From Alteripontixanthobacter maritimus (GTDB lineage Bacteria; Pseudomonadota; Alphaproteobacteria; Sphingomonadales; Sphingomonadaceae): 64,000 nucleotides of DNA. The translations under genes were made by a program, and so were the position numbers. The stretch is taken from NCBI RefSeq assembly GCF_003340475.1, contig NZ_QBKA01000002.1, positions 1,993,501 through 2,057,500 on the forward strand, written 5' to 3'. Every line of letters begins with the position of its first letter. Positions within the stretch are counted from its first letter, which is position 1. Below are positions 3,579-29,381 of this stretch, piece by piece. Below the pieces are notes generated by a model, which was given only the letters and a program-made list of their open reading frames with translations, was not told the origin of the DNA and made no database searches.

Positions 3579-5150
3579 ATGAGCCTGCTGAAAAATGTCG
3601 GTACGATCGGCGGGCTGACGATGGTCAGCCGGCTGTTCGGCTTCGTGCGCGATATGCTGGTGGCGCGCGTGCTGGGCGCGACGGCGATGGGGGATGCCTG
3701 GCAGCTGGCTTTCATGCTGCCCAATATCTTCCGCCGCCTGTTTGCCGAAGGGGCCTTCGCATCCGCCTTCGTGCCGCTGTTCAACCGGCGCATGAAGGAG
3801 GATGGCGACACCAGTGAAGCGCGTGAATTCGCGGAAAACGTGCTGGCGGTATTGCTGCCGATCCTGATCGTATTTGGCGGCATCGCGTTGATCGTGATGC
3901 CGTGGGTGGTGGCCTATTTCGCGCCTGAAGGATTGGCGGAAGACGGCGACAGCCTGGCTATCGCGACCATGATGGCGCGCATCACTTTCCCCTACCTTTT
4001 GTTCATGAGCCTCGCCACGCTGTTCGCTGCGGTGCTCAATTCGCTCTCGCGCTTCGCCGCCGCCGCTGCGGCACCCATCCTTCTCAACATCTGCCTGATT
4101 ATGGCGCTGGTTTACGGCGTAACCCTCGATGGCGGAGTGGACGCCCGCCGCGAAGCCGCGTTCTGGATGGCAATTGCGCTGTCGCTGTCGGGGCTGTTGC
4201 AGCTTGTCTGGTTGATGATCTGGATGCGGCGAGCGGGTTTCCGTATCGGCCTTATCGCGCCCCGAATCACCGGCGGAGTAAAGGAGCTGGGCATATTGGT
4301 CGTCCCGGCCATATTCGGCGCCGGGGTCTATCAGATCAGCCGCTTCATCGACATGTTCTTCCTGTCTACGCTGCCGGTCGGCAGCTACACCTACCTCGCC
4401 ATGGCGGACCGCTGGAACCAGTTGCCGCTCGGCATAATCGGCATAGCGCTCGGCACCGCGATCCTGCCCGCTCTCAGCCGCTATATCGGGCGCGGCGAAG
4501 GGGAGGAGGCGCAGCGCCTGCAATCCAACGCGGTGGAGCTTGCCATGTTGCTGACGGTGCCGGCTGCCGTCGCCCTGTTCGTAACCGGCAGCGCATTCAC
4601 CCGCGTGTTCTTCGCTGCGGGCGAGTTCACGGTGGAGGATGCGATGATTACCGGCACAGTGGTGTCCGGACTGGTTATCGGCTTGCCCGCCTATGTGCTC
4701 GTGAAGGTGCTGACCCCCAATTTCTTCGCGCGGAAAGATACGCGCACGCCGGTTTACACCGCCGCGGCTTCGCTGGCGGTGACGATCGCGCTCAATGTCG
4801 TGCTGGTGCCGCAGATCGGCGTGCTGGGATTGGCCGTCGCAGGCTCAGTGGGCGCATGGTGCAATGTGGCGCTGCTGTATTTCCTGCTCGCCCGGCGCGA
4901 CCTGTTCCGCCTGCCGCCGCGTATTGCTGGACGGTTGGCGCGCATAACGATCGCCGCGCTGGTCATGGGGGTTGCACTCTGGCTGCTGATGCCGCTGGTC
5001 GATCCCTGGTTTACGGGTAACGTGGCGCAGAAAGCGGGCGGTATCGCCGCCATCGTGTCGGCTGGTCTCGCGGTGTTCGCGATTTGCGCGTTGGCCTTGC
5101 GTGTGGTCGACAAATCGACCATCCAGCGGCTGATGCGAAGGCAGGGTTGA
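3579..5150 (+). CDS. murJ: Lipid II flippase MurJ
   Basis: The 523-residue polytopic membrane protein has the MurJ/MviN pattern of about 14 hydrophobic segments. It opens with MSLLKNVGTIGGLTMVSRLF, in which the SR-x-x-G-F region is a family hallmark, followed by VARVLGATAMGDAWQLAF. MurJ flips undecaprenyl-linked peptidoglycan precursor across the inner membrane. It lies in the order secB-murJ-trpS, 46 bp after secB and 80 bp before trpS, all on the + strand and likely one transcription unit. The length is normal and no disruption is seen. Confidence 0.96.
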   Translation: MSLLKNVGTIGGLTMVSRLFGFVRDMLVARVLGATAMGDAWQLAFMLPNIFRRLFAEGAFASAFVPLFNRRMKEDGDTSEAREFAENVLAVLLPILIVFGGIALIVMPWVVAYFAPEGLAEDGDSLAIATMMARITFPYLLFMSLATLFAAVLNSLSRFAAAAAAPILLNICLIMALVYGVTLDGGVDARREAAFWMAIALSLSGLLQLVWLMIWMRRAGFRIGLIAPRITGGVKELGILVVPAIFGAGVYQISRFIDMFFLSTLPVGSYTYLAMADRWNQLPLGIIGIALGTAILPALSRYIGRGEGEEAQRLQSNAVELAMLLTVPAAVALFVTGSAFTRVFFAAGEFTVEDAMITGTVVSGLVIGLPAYVLVKVLTPNFFARKDTRTPVYTAAASLAVTIALNVVLVPQIGVLGLAVAGSVGAWCNVALLYFLLARRDLFRLPPRIAGRLARITIAALVMGVALWLLMPLVDPWFTGNVAQKAGGIAAIVSAGLAVFAICALALRVVDKSTIQRLMRRQG

Positions 5151-15077: not shown

Positions 15078-16490
15078 ATGGAAGATATCGAAGCGGTTAA
15101 TCTCGCGGCCGACTGGTCGGATATCAGCCAGGGTCTGCGCAAGGATCTCGGCCACCAGTTGCACAGCCAGTGGATCAAACCGATCCAGGTCGGCGGATTT
15201 TGCAAGGATACCGGAACGCTCGATCTTTTCCTGCCCACCGATTTCAGCGCCAACTGGGTGCAGGACCGCTTTGCCGACCGCCTGAGCCTGGCCTGGAAGA
15301 TTGCCCGCAGCGAAGTGCGCAATGTGCGAATCGCTGTGCATCCCGGCCGCCGCAAATTGCCCGAACTGCAACTTGGCGGCAGGCAGGCTGCCAATGATGG
15401 CGGCGGCGGAATGGCTGGCGGCGCGGCTGCGGGCGGCGATACCGGTTACACCCATGGACTGTCGGGCCCCGTCGGGCTCGATCCTTCGTTGACCTTTGCC
15501 GCGTTCGTCACGGGTGAGGCAAATGTACTTGCCTGCAATGCAGCGCAGCGCATGGCCGCCAACGAAACGCCGCAATTCTCTCCGCTCTATCTCAAGGGCG
15601 CGACCGGCCAGGGCAAGACGCATTTGATGCACGCCATCGGCCACGCGTATCTGGCGCATCATCCACGCGCCCGGATCTTCTACTGCAGCGCCGAACGGTT
15701 CATGGTGCAATTCGTGCAGGCGCTGAAATCCGGCCAGACAATGGAATTCAAGGCCCGCCTGCGCAGTTTCGACCTGCTGCTGGTGGACGACCTGCAATTC
15801 ATCATCGGCAAGGCCAGCGCGCAGGAAGAACTGCTTTACACGATCGACGCGCTGCTGGCGGAAGGCAAACGGCTGGTCTTTGCTGCCGATCGCGCTCCGC
15901 AGGCGCTCGATGGGGTGGAGCCGCGCTTGCTCAGCCGTCTTTCGATGGGTCTTGTCGCCGATATCCAGCCAGCCGATATCGAGCTGCGCCGTTCGATCCT
16001 GGAAGCGCGGCTTACACGGTTTGCACCGCTTGCCGTGCCTGCCGACGTGATCGATTTCCTCGCCCGCACTGTGACCCGCAATGTCCGTGAGCTGATCGGC
16101 GGCCTCAACAAGCTGATCGCCTATGCCCAGCTGACCGGGCAGGAGGTGTCTCTGGCGCTGGCGGAAGACCAGTTGACCGATATTCTGTCGGCCAACCGCC
16201 GCCGTATCACGATCGATGAAATCCAGCGCACCGTCTGCCAGTTCTATCGCATCGACCGCAGCGAAATGAGTTCCAAGCGCCGCGCCCGCGCTGTGGTCCG
16301 CCCGCGCCAGGTGGCGATGTACCTCGCGAAGAAGCTAACCCCGCGCAGCTACCCCGAAATCGGCCGCAAGTTCGGCGGCCGCGATCATTCCACCGTGATC
16401 CATGCCGTGCGCCTGATCGAAGACCTGCGCACCCGCGATGCCGATATGGACGGCGATGTGCGGAGCCTGCTGCGCCAGCTGGAAAGCTGA
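15078..16490 (+). CDS. dnaA: Chromosomal replication initiator DnaA
   Basis: The 470-residue AAA+ initiator has all four domains. Domain I (residues 1-80) is followed by a short Gly/Ala-rich linker (~105-130). The AAA+ module has Walker A GATGQGKTHLMHAIGH, Walker B LLLVDDLQFI and sensor 2. Domain IV has the DNA-binding helix-turn-helix and the signature GRDHSTVIHAVRLIEDL. The ATG at 15078 is preceded by GGGG and AGGA; a frame extending to 14958 adds 40 unlikely residues. No dnaN follows. Instead a structured repeat element lies directly after the stop. Confidence 0.97.
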   Translation: MEDIEAVNLAADWSDISQGLRKDLGHQLHSQWIKPIQVGGFCKDTGTLDLFLPTDFSANWVQDRFADRLSLAWKIARSEVRNVRIAVHPGRRKLPELQLGGRQAANDGGGGMAGGAAAGGDTGYTHGLSGPVGLDPSLTFAAFVTGEANVLACNAAQRMAANETPQFSPLYLKGATGQGKTHLMHAIGHAYLAHHPRARIFYCSAERFMVQFVQALKSGQTMEFKARLRSFDLLLVDDLQFIIGKASAQEELLYTIDALLAEGKRLVFAADRAPQALDGVEPRLLSRLSMGLVADIQPADIELRRSILEARLTRFAPLAVPADVIDFLARTVTRNVRELIGGLNKLIAYAQLTGQEVSLALAEDQLTDILSANRRRITIDEIQRTVCQFYRIDRSEMSSKRRARAVVRPRQVAMYLAKKLTPRSYPEIGRKFGGRDHSTVIHAVRLIEDLRTRDADMDGDVRSLLRQLES

Positions 16491-16500
16491 GGGGTGTTTT

Positions 16501-16850
16501 AGTTTTGCCTCAAGTGGTGGTGGGAGTTTCTTGTTTAGCCTCAAGCGCCGGCGGTCGCATTCGCTCCCTTAGGCTATCCTCGCTTCGCTGCGGGCGGCCC
16601 TTTGGGCCTATGACTGCCGTGACCTGGAACCGGGTTCAAGATTGCGAGGATAGCGCTAATTCCGTTTGCGACCAGCAAACGGCAAGCATGTCCTGAGCCT
16701 GTCGAAGGGGCCGAACGGCCGCCCGAGCTTATGTGAGGAAGCAAGGAACCCGGATGGGTTCCGCCCGCAGGGTCAAAAAAACTCCCACCCGCAAGGGTCC
16801 TAACAAAAACGCCGCCGCCTGAGGCTAAACAATACCTTCCCACCCGCCTG
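16501..16850. repeat. Structured intergenic repeat, copy 1 (after dnaA)
   Basis: This fills the gap between dnaA and the E1-like gene. The core (16531-16832) begins TTGTTTAGCCTCAAGCGCC and ends with the inverted GAGGCTAAACAA, so terminal inverted repeats are present. A second, outer/inner pair (GGTGGGAGTTT at 16518-16528 against AAACTCCCACC at 16779-16789) makes the ends look nested. Internal hairpins: CCGTTTGC/GCAAACGG with loop GACCA (16662-16682), GGCC-GAAC-GGCC (16709-16720) and GGAACCC-GGAT-GGGTTCC (16745-16762). GCTATCCTCGC near 16573 pairs with GCGAGGATAGC near 16647. No transposase is encoded. Confidence 0.85.
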
Positions 16851-16872
16851 CGGCTTACCCTAAGGCCGCGGC

Positions 16873-19164: not shown

Positions 19165-19815
19165 ATGACGAAGGACCAAATTTTCGAATTCTTCCGCCGC
19201 CTGGCGGAGGATAATCCTTCGCCGGAAACCGAGTTGGAATATGGCAATGCCTACCAGCTGGTGGTGGCCGTAGCGCTTTCGGCGCAGGCGACCGATGTGG
19301 GCGTGAACAAGGCCACACGGGCGCTGTTCGCGCGCGTGGAAACGCCGCAGCAGATGCTCGATCTGGGCGAAGATGGGCTGAAGGCGCATATCCGAACCAT
19401 CGGCCTGTTCAATTCCAAGGCGAAGAACGTCATCGCGCTAAGCCAGCTGTTGGTGGACGAATATGGCGGCGATGTACCTGACACGCGCGAGGATCTGGTT
19501 CGCCTTCCCGGCGTAGGGCGCAAGACGGCTAATGTCGTGCTCAATTGCTGGTTCGGGCAGGAGACCTTCGCGGTCGATACTCACATCCTGCGCGTTGGCA
19601 ACCGCACTGGCCTTGCCAAGGGCAAGACGCCCGAACAGGTCGAGGCCAAGCTGGACAAGCGCGTTCCCCAGCCCTTCCGCCTGCACGCCCACCATTGGCT
19701 GATCCTGCACGGGCGCTACGTCTGCAAGGCTCGCACGCCGGAATGCTGGCGCTGCCCGGTAGTGGATCTGTGTAGTTTTCGGAAGAAAGTGCTGGAGGTG
19801 CCGAAGGGGCGTTAG
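19165..19815 (+). CDS. nth: Endonuclease III
   Basis: The 216-residue base-excision repair glycosylase/AP lyase for oxidised pyrimidines shows the helix-hairpin-helix LPGVGRKTANVVLN with the catalytic lysine, the catalytic aspartate in FAVDTHILRV, and the [4Fe-4S] cluster ligands C-x6-C-x2-C-x5-C in CKARTPECWRCPVVDLC. The ATG at 19165 is taken as the start of the conserved MTKDQIFEFF; the preceding in-frame ATG at 19138 overlaps dapB. It follows dapB by 10 bp. A structured repeat lies after its stop. Confidence 0.97.
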   Translation: MTKDQIFEFFRRLAEDNPSPETELEYGNAYQLVVAVALSAQATDVGVNKATRALFARVETPQQMLDLGEDGLKAHIRTIGLFNSKAKNVIALSQLLVDEYGGDVPDTREDLVRLPGVGRKTANVVLNCWFGQETFAVDTHILRVGNRTGLAKGKTPEQVEAKLDKRVPQPFRLHAHHWLILHGRYVCKARTPECWRCPVVDLCSFRKKVLEVPKGR

Positions 19816-19842
19816 GTGTTTCAACTTCAGGCGCCGGCGAGG

Positions 19843-20086
19843 TTGTTTGTATTGCCTCAAGCGCCGGCGGTCGCATCCGCTCCCTTAGGCTTTCCTCGCG
19901 CTGCGCGCTGCGGGCGGCCCTTTGGGCCTATGACTGCCGTGACCTGGCACCGGGTCCAAGATTGCGAGGTTGGCGCTGATCCCGTTTGCGACCAGCAAAC
20001 GGCAAGCGCGAATGCGCGCCCGAGCTTATGCGAGGAAAGCCAAGCGGGCCGGATGGCCCGCGCCCGGCGCTTGAGGGTCTAAACAA
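19843..20086. repeat. Structured intergenic repeat, copy 2 (nth / symporter)
   Basis: This 244-bp copy lies between convergent genes and is the most regular one. Its left end begins at TTGTTTGTATTGCCTCAAGC and its right end is the inverse, GCTTGAGGGTCTAAACAA, with imperfect similarity between the arms extending about 75 bp inward. GGCTTTCCTCGC (near 19889) pairs exactly with GCGAGGAAAGCC (near 20031). Hairpins: CCGTTTGC/GCAAACGG with loop GACCA (19982-20002), GCGC-GAAT-GCGC (20006-20017) and GCGGGCC-GGAT-GGCCCGC (20044-20061). The core around CGGCCCTTTGGGCCTATGAC is identical to copies 1 and 3. Confidence 0.88.
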
Positions 20087-20107
20087 AAAACGCCCGGACA
20101 ACCCCCC

Positions 20108-28999: not shown

Positions 29000-29033
29000 C
29001 GATCGCTATGATAGTGCGGTTGGGGGTGAGAGT

Positions 29034-29380
29034 CTTTTTTGTTTTGCCTCAGGCGCCGGCGGTCGCATTCGCTCCCTTAGGCTTTCCTCGCGCTTCGCGC
29101 TGCGGGCGGCCCTTTGGGCCTATGACTGCCGTGATTGTATTTTGTTTGGCCCTCAAACGCCGGGCGCTCGCATCCGCTCGCTTGGCTTCCTTGCATCAGC
29201 TTGGGCGGCCGTTCGGCCTTGCGGTTTGCCGGTCGCAAACCGAAATCGCGCTAAGCTATAGAAGTGGTATCAAGAATCTGGTCACGGCAGTCATAGGCCC
29301 AAAGGGCCGCCCGCAGCGACGCGACCGTCAGGTCGCATGAGCGAGGTTACCGCACACCCGGATGGGTGTGCGAAAAACAA
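29034..29380. repeat. Structured intergenic repeat, copy 3 (between rpmH and rnpA)
   Basis: This copy fills the rpmH-rnpA gap and is rearranged. The left part (29034-29134) is in + orientation (TTTTGCCTCAGGCGCCGGCGG through CTATGACTGCCGTGA). The middle (about 29140-29330) is an inverted element beginning TTTGTTTGGCCCTCAAACGC. The core arms at 29100-29134 and near 29281-29316 form an inverted repeat of about 35 bp. Hairpins: CGGTTTGC/GCAAACCG (29222-29242), GGCC-GTTC-GGCC (29207-29218) and CGCACACCC-GGAT-GGGTGTGCG (29351-29372). The middle copy of the GGAT-type loop region has non-complementary arms, so that hairpin is lost there. Confidence 0.85.
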
Positions 29381-29381
29381 A

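Follow-up and report, generated by a model that had tools for sequence, protein, structure and literature searches.

The gap between rpmH and rnpA in the genome analysed here was found to hold one complete and one half copy of a dispersed repeat, and arms of this repeat family occupy the same place, directly behind the rpmH stop codon, in many related genera. The reading that we prefer, though tentatively, is that the gap is an old mosaic 3′-end hairpin cassette which has been remodelled by recombination with dispersed copies. In outline, an interspersed mosaic repeat of Erythrobacteraceae and some relatives fills the gap; its unit is an arm of ∼85–105 nt with three or four short hairpins and conserved linkers, and two inverted arms around a centre make a full element of ∼240 bp ending TTTGTTTT/AAAACAAA. 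One arm would have resided beside the rpmH stop since before the split of many present genera, where its hairpins may close off the rpmH transcript at its 3′-end and protect the mRNA there; in most species a GC-rich hairpin with a short T tract follows, and ahead of rnpA this may work as a terminator, perhaps a leaky one. The version at this site has changed repeatedly, from A to B and back; recombination with dispersed copies, or gene conversion by them, would be the route, as they have in common with it both the end TTTGTTTT and the core GCTGCGGGC-hairpin-TTGCGG. In the present genome such an event may have spared arm A while a dispersed element's centre and distal arm took the place of the terminator-like hairpin; the half element would be an addition.

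Both genes lie on the minus strand of the window (the whole stretch of DNA analysed, 64,000 nucleotides), and their coordinates (Table 1) bear out the 382-bp spacing (29000–29381) noted in an earlier, sequence-only reading of this DNA. In the direction from rpmH to rnpA, arm A (29380–29298) comes first, then a centre with a reversed B-type arm of a dispersed element (29297–29135) and last the half element (29134–29030), whose B arm is oriented opposite to the complete element. The inverted inner element and the inverted repeat of ∼35 bp that the sequence-only reading had described were thus both recovered: the complete element (29135–29381) abuts the oppositely read half element (29030–29134), and the inverted repeat measures 37 bp, is 100% complementary and has 147 nt between its arms. 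It corresponds to the conserved core of the family, present once per orientation; the core alone recurs, at 97–100% identity, at three other places of the genome. Covariance model R1 matched arm A at 29291–29373 (E 2.3e-12), and the B-arm model matched 29149–29219, inside the region of the centre and B′-type arm (E 4e-5). The junction TGCCGTGA-TTGTATTTTGTTTGGCC between the two elements recurs at ∼2187640 of contig G000:C2, the elements that follow it having opposite orientations at the two sites. When the gap was folded as RNA (transcribed strand), a free energy of –192.7 kcal/mol was obtained (shuffled mean –136.4; z –9.36; none of 100 shuffles was as stable), in agreement with the very stable fold that had been predicted.

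Table 1. Genes and repeat parts at the rpmH-rnpA locus (positions in the window)
Feature	Position	Strand	Basis
rpmH, ribosomal protein L34, 44 aa	29382..29516	-	TIGR01030, 70.4 bits, cut-off 37.65
Arm A, directly after rpmH stop, begins TTTGTTTTT	29298..29380	-	nhmmer E 8e-18, model trained without the window
Arm A hairpin 1	29351..29372	-	sequence; helix covaries in relatives
Arm A hairpin 2	29321..29336	-	sequence; helix covaries in relatives
Arm A hairpin 3, adjoining core GCTGCGGGC	29296..29308	-	sequence; helix covaries in relatives
Centre and right (B′-type) arm of dispersed element	29135..29297	-	at most 84% identity to other copies
Right arm of 37-bp perfect inverted repeat (family core)	29282..29318	+	
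Left arm of 37-bp perfect inverted repeat (family core)	29098..29134	+	
Half element: end GAGTCTTTTTTGTTTT, B arm, core; cut in centre at TGCCGTGA	29030..29134	+	sequence, own-genome matches
rnpA, RNase P protein component, 137 aa	28586..28999	-	TIGR00188, 59.1 bits, cut-off 38.35

Elsewhere in the same genome the repeat is abundant. Sixty-four pieces matched the gap, and grouping by hand reduced these to 27 places, the gap included. Two others lie in the window (16515–16742 and 19843–20091) and are presumably the first and second copies that the sequence-only reading had counted before the one at rpmH. A typical copy is ∼240 bp long, with inverted ends TTTGTTT/AAACAAA and partly complementary arms: an arm starting GCCTCAAGCGCCGGCG leads into the core GCTGCGGGCGGCC...TATGACTGCCGTGACC, after which come the variable centre and, reversed, the other arm. 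None of the copies fell wholly within a gene according to a simple gene call, and several overlapped the end of a called gene by up to 33 nt. Nested and truncated copies were present, some sitting within one another's ends. At three sites (16460–16860 and 19800–20100 of the window, and G000:C2:2191500–2191850) copies were bordered by short TTTTTTGTTTGGCCTCAAGCGCCGGCG-like end fragments of other copies, as if elements had been replaced repeatedly within older ends. As regards distribution, 21 of the 27 grouped copies fell in the 1.52–2.57 Mb interval of the 2.66-Mb contig G000:C2, on which two distant sites (3696–3842 and 2562855–2563001) bear near-identical copies and flanks, as from a duplicated segment.

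To place the gap among relatives, 110 rnpA loci were surveyed (30, including that of the present genome, plus 80 that are mostly Erythrobacteraceae by title). A gap could be read in 107 of them, whereas rpmH and rnpA were not neighbours in three genera. The gap was measured from the rpmH stop to the DF motif of RnpA, and in the window this distance includes 42 nt of rnpA. Two pairs of rows had identical sequences (L064_G012 and L152; L065_G031 and L135). Rows were assigned to the Erythrobacteraceae-like clade or to the outside group from a tree of RnpA and YidC; one RnpA alignment took nine of the 12 sequences first tried, L066, L071 and L072 being left out. Outside the clade (26 rows), the distance was 20 to 38 nt in 21 rows and 62 to 104 nt in five, so the near-adjacency of the two genes that the sequence-only reading took as the usual state holds true there. 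Inside the clade, 71 of 81 rows had a gap of at least 100 nt; one outside row brought the number of such long gaps to 72. Profile models of the two arm types, built from 10 rows (A) and eight rows (B), recognised an arm at E < 0.05 in 46 of the 72 long gaps. In 44 of the 107 readable gaps (one a duplicate) an arm lay right behind the rpmH stop, defined as within 30 nt of it, 26 being of type A and 18 of type B. Shuffled gaps gave no match in 1560 for either model, and 17 of the 27 rows with A and 10 of the 18 with B had played no part in training. The presence of arms at the same spot in so many relatives, together with the lack of matches in shuffled gaps, argues that the occupant of the gap is old. 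An arm is not required, however, since 28 survey rows had a long gap with no recognised leading arm, and some Qipengyuania rows among these carried the hairpin only.

These results do not support the picture of a lone insertion into a tight operon. The comparison of spacing in relatives that the sequence-only reading had put forward as a check revealed long gaps with family arms to be widespread, the arms mostly adjoining the stop codon of rpmH, and this is the outcome which that reading had named as evidence against an insertion. That the genome acquired the element in a single recent insertion is hardly credible: arm A is at the same place in many genera, and the inner part of the gap element is at best 84% identical to other copies of the genome, even though the extra half copy was seen only in the window among the gaps read, and the dispersed-type centre is common only to the window, L103 and L122.

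The loci at which rpmH lies apart from rnpA (L098, L099, L100, L253 and L254) belong to three related genera. In genomes G015 and G032, rpmH precedes an exonuclease III-like gene (named by eye), and no arm was detected behind rpmH at E < 0.05. In genome G017, an incomplete assembly in which rpmH was not found, rnpA follows an ammonium-transporter-like gene (also by eye), with a weak remnant of arm A between the two (E 0.0021). It is possible that breaks at the repeat lie behind the rearrangements of rpmH and rnpA; there is a hint of this in one case only.

Arms A and B are of nearly equal length, and both join hairpin 3, followed by GCGGGCTCCC....GGGAGCCCGTTT, at the same place. When the A/B label of the 44 rows was mapped onto the RnpA+YidC tree (a quick, two-protein tree in which 33 of 107 inner branches are open), at least 12 changes were required; L126 (A) and L166 (B), for example, are sisters on a starred branch, and the arm likewise differs between E. 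fulvus (A) and E. dokdonensis (B). The labels are still clustered, since all four labels together need 32 changes and shuffled labels needed 58 on average. So many changes of arm type would also suit a still mobile element that prefers sites behind stop codons, the A and B arms at rpmH then representing independent insertions. We consider this hot-spot explanation unlikely, yet a serious contender. Against it stands the fact that A and B arms join the same stretch of hairpin 3 and terminator-like sequence at the same place, which is more easily explained by recombination within shared sequence than by insertion.

The position of dispersed arms bears on the same question. A covariance-model search for arm A in 20 genomes (14 near, the present one included, and six farther) found copies in 12. 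At E ≤ 0.01 the number per genome ranged from 0 to 31, and the matches came to at least 137 in all; these counts are lower bounds, as no more than 150 candidates were scored in each genome. Placement was analysed for 55 of the 59 matches with E up to 7.3e-5 (out of the 137), three at rpmH and one in G015:C18 being left out. The nearest upstream gene was in sense orientation for 32 of these 55 arms and antisense for 21, with no call for two; seven arms were flagged as inside a called ORF, at least some such ORFs being spurious. A sense stop codon lay no more than 16 nt before the start of the arm in 18 of the 55. Random placement in the same intergenic stretches, performed for the 50 arms with both neighbours (all 18 among them), rendered 3.4 (sd 1.6), and none of 2000 trials reached 18. 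Such an excess behind stop codons, far above chance, is what a hot-spot element would produce, as are copies nested in one another's ends. Placements shared between genera weigh the other way. Homologous genes flanked the arm on the same side in 11 of 1246 cross-genome arm pairs, where a rough reckoning of the chance expectation gives about one. Arms were shared behind rpsA in two genera, before an ilvE-type aminotransferase gene in three and beside obgE in two; a response-regulator gene was followed by arm A in three (the present genome, G002 and G014), and two further pairs were less clear. In the response-regulator case, arm A starts 6 to 8 nt after the stop codon in three genera, the present one included (L200, L228 and L246); the gene is LytTR-like, as named below curated cut-offs only, and a hisA-like gene was named by eye. 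Shared placements of this kind speak for long residence at gene ends. The possibility that GANTC (CcrM) sites mark the ends of the element was suggested by GACTC or GATTC beside rnpA in ten gaps and was rejected: in the 30 nt before each dispersed A arm, counted by eye, GAGTC was present for only ∼5 of 55 arms, about the number expected by chance.

Signs of ongoing transposition were sought in the present genome. No target-site duplication was apparent: in the 17 of 24 copies with readable ends, the longest common stretch averaged 3.88 compared with 3.75 for re-paired flanks (155 of 500 re-pairings were as high), in a test not anchored to the exact ends. Symmetry of the flanks beyond TTTGTTT was likewise not supported (5.53 matches in own pairs against 5.18 in re-paired ones; 310 of 2000 re-pairings as high). 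A search for the Y1 transposase (PF01797), the only transposase sought, found no match in this genome and did find matches in five of 14 control genomes. Both the lack of a duplication signal and that of a Y1 transposase count against a hot-spot element. Taken with the junctions described above, these results incline us to the view that arms were exchanged by recombination or gene conversion, although repeated insertion behind stop codons may also have taken place.

An element with no role for rpmH or rnpA, decaying slowly in the gap as a neutral selfish repeat, would also leave nested and truncated copies and relatives without arms. The structure of arm A renders this improbable. In an alignment of 13 sequences, selected because they aligned cleanly and themselves the source of the structure drawn (12 came from the 26 leading A arms, and the last was the reversed arm of L142), nine of the 20 base pairs of the three helices changed on both sides, and 91.8% of the cells were paired. 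The covariation score was 0.357, and slid controls reached at most 0.078. In a broader set of 19 sequences, RNAalifold detected double changes in six of 21 pairs, with hairpin 2 misaligned. Compensatory changes in all three helices indicate that the structure of arm A is under constraint, and long retention at rpmH and a few other genes is a further argument against neutrality.

A covarying structure might also belong to an independent small RNA or to a substrate of RNase P, the sequence-only reading having suggested that RNase P might cut the element. This is very improbable. Rfam gave no match inside the gap at E up to 1 (its sole match was outside the gap, far below the gathering score), no sigma-70-like site was found in the gap by simple consensus, and, as no tRNA-like gene was found in the gap either, cleavage of a tRNA-like element by RNase P was dropped.

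The second part of the proposed cassette is a GC-rich hairpin of the form GGGC...GCCCGTT with a short T tract, which was present between rpmH and rnpA in 61 of the 72 long gaps according to a fixed pattern requiring at least two T. Among the 11 misses, six had a variant of the hairpin visible by eye (L066, L075, L106, L131, L146 and L150), L175 had the hairpin without a T tract, and L115 gave an ambiguous picture. The pattern was absent from the gap of the window: the hairpin's place is taken here, as in L103 and L122, by a dispersed-type centre GCTGCCG..ACCA (in the window GACTGCCGTGACCA), so that 29135–29297 occupies the position of the terminator-like hairpin of most relatives. Loss of this hairpin was confined to these three among the gaps read. 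The T tract of relatives is only 2 to 4 T long, and a terminator scan requiring 5 T in 8 did not flag the hairpin in L118 or L127. The scan flagged nothing on the minus strand inside 29000–29381 either but, since it is strict enough to miss the hairpin of relatives, its silence in the window is no evidence. At the 15 dispersed sites read, few of the fourth hairpins had a T tract, which would suit a neutral repeat. We infer that the hairpin of relatives may act as a terminator, in which case rnpA would lie behind an attenuating hairpin in most of the family. The genome of the window would appear to have lost that hairpin by recombination with a dispersed copy; as arm A was left intact and the terminator-like hairpin was replaced, more read-through into rnpA is predicted.

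These findings bear on how such repeats are regarded. Intergenic palindromic repeats are usually seen as scattered selfish DNA; here, many genera have kept one repeat family at one and the same pair of essential genes, its version having changed at least a dozen times. Nor are rpmH and rnpA always a tight two-gene operon, since in most of the species surveyed in this family the two are separated by a long gap that holds a terminator-like hairpin. A bolder idea, which we find doubtful but worth stating, is that mobile 3′-end cassettes situated behind the stops of rpmH, rpsA and further core genes are exchangeable, their versions being swapped repeatedly at the same site across the family, so that repeat exchange rather than point mutation would rewire transcript ends and the coupling of L34 to the RNase P protein. 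Since natural variants (arm A, arm B, the hairpin only, neither) exist among relatives, a role of these repeats at transcript ends is directly testable.

Intergenic mosaic elements are known from other alphaproteobacteria, such as the RIME/ABC elements of Rhizobium and Bru-RS of Brucella. These resemble the repeat in the gap in being intergenic, palindrome-rich and modular, with a length of ∼100–250 bp; they are not known to have resided for long at one orthologous operon with switching of arms. None of the literature matches listed dealt, by title or the start of the abstract, with this repeat or with a long rpmH-rnpA gap in Erythrobacteraceae. A table row in one paper apparently assigns 3,055 REPs, by an automatic tool, to Erythrobacter cryptus (PMC12306157). 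A REP/RAYT system was rejected for the present genome, which lacks the Y1 transposase. REP/BIME and CGTC-tagged REPs (PMC3733652) are extragenic palindromes forming inverted pairs, as here. The GTAG tag of REPs was not seen by eye in the arm A consensus. Most rows of the arm A alignment have CGTC after hairpin 2, a position at which B arms lack it. The arms of the gap repeat also differ in size from REP palindromes, being 85–105 nt long with several hairpins, against 20–40 bp. MITEs, as presented in PMC10969869, are likewise small, non-coding and present in many copies with inverted terminal stretches; the gap repeat differs in showing no signal of target duplication and in having no known parent transposon, the transposase search having covered Y1 only. 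Also similar, as described in the same paper, are the BOX and SPRITE elements of Streptococcus pneumoniae (PMC10969869), which belong to another phylum: these small repeats form clusters and insert into each other, and SPRITE resembles a terminator.
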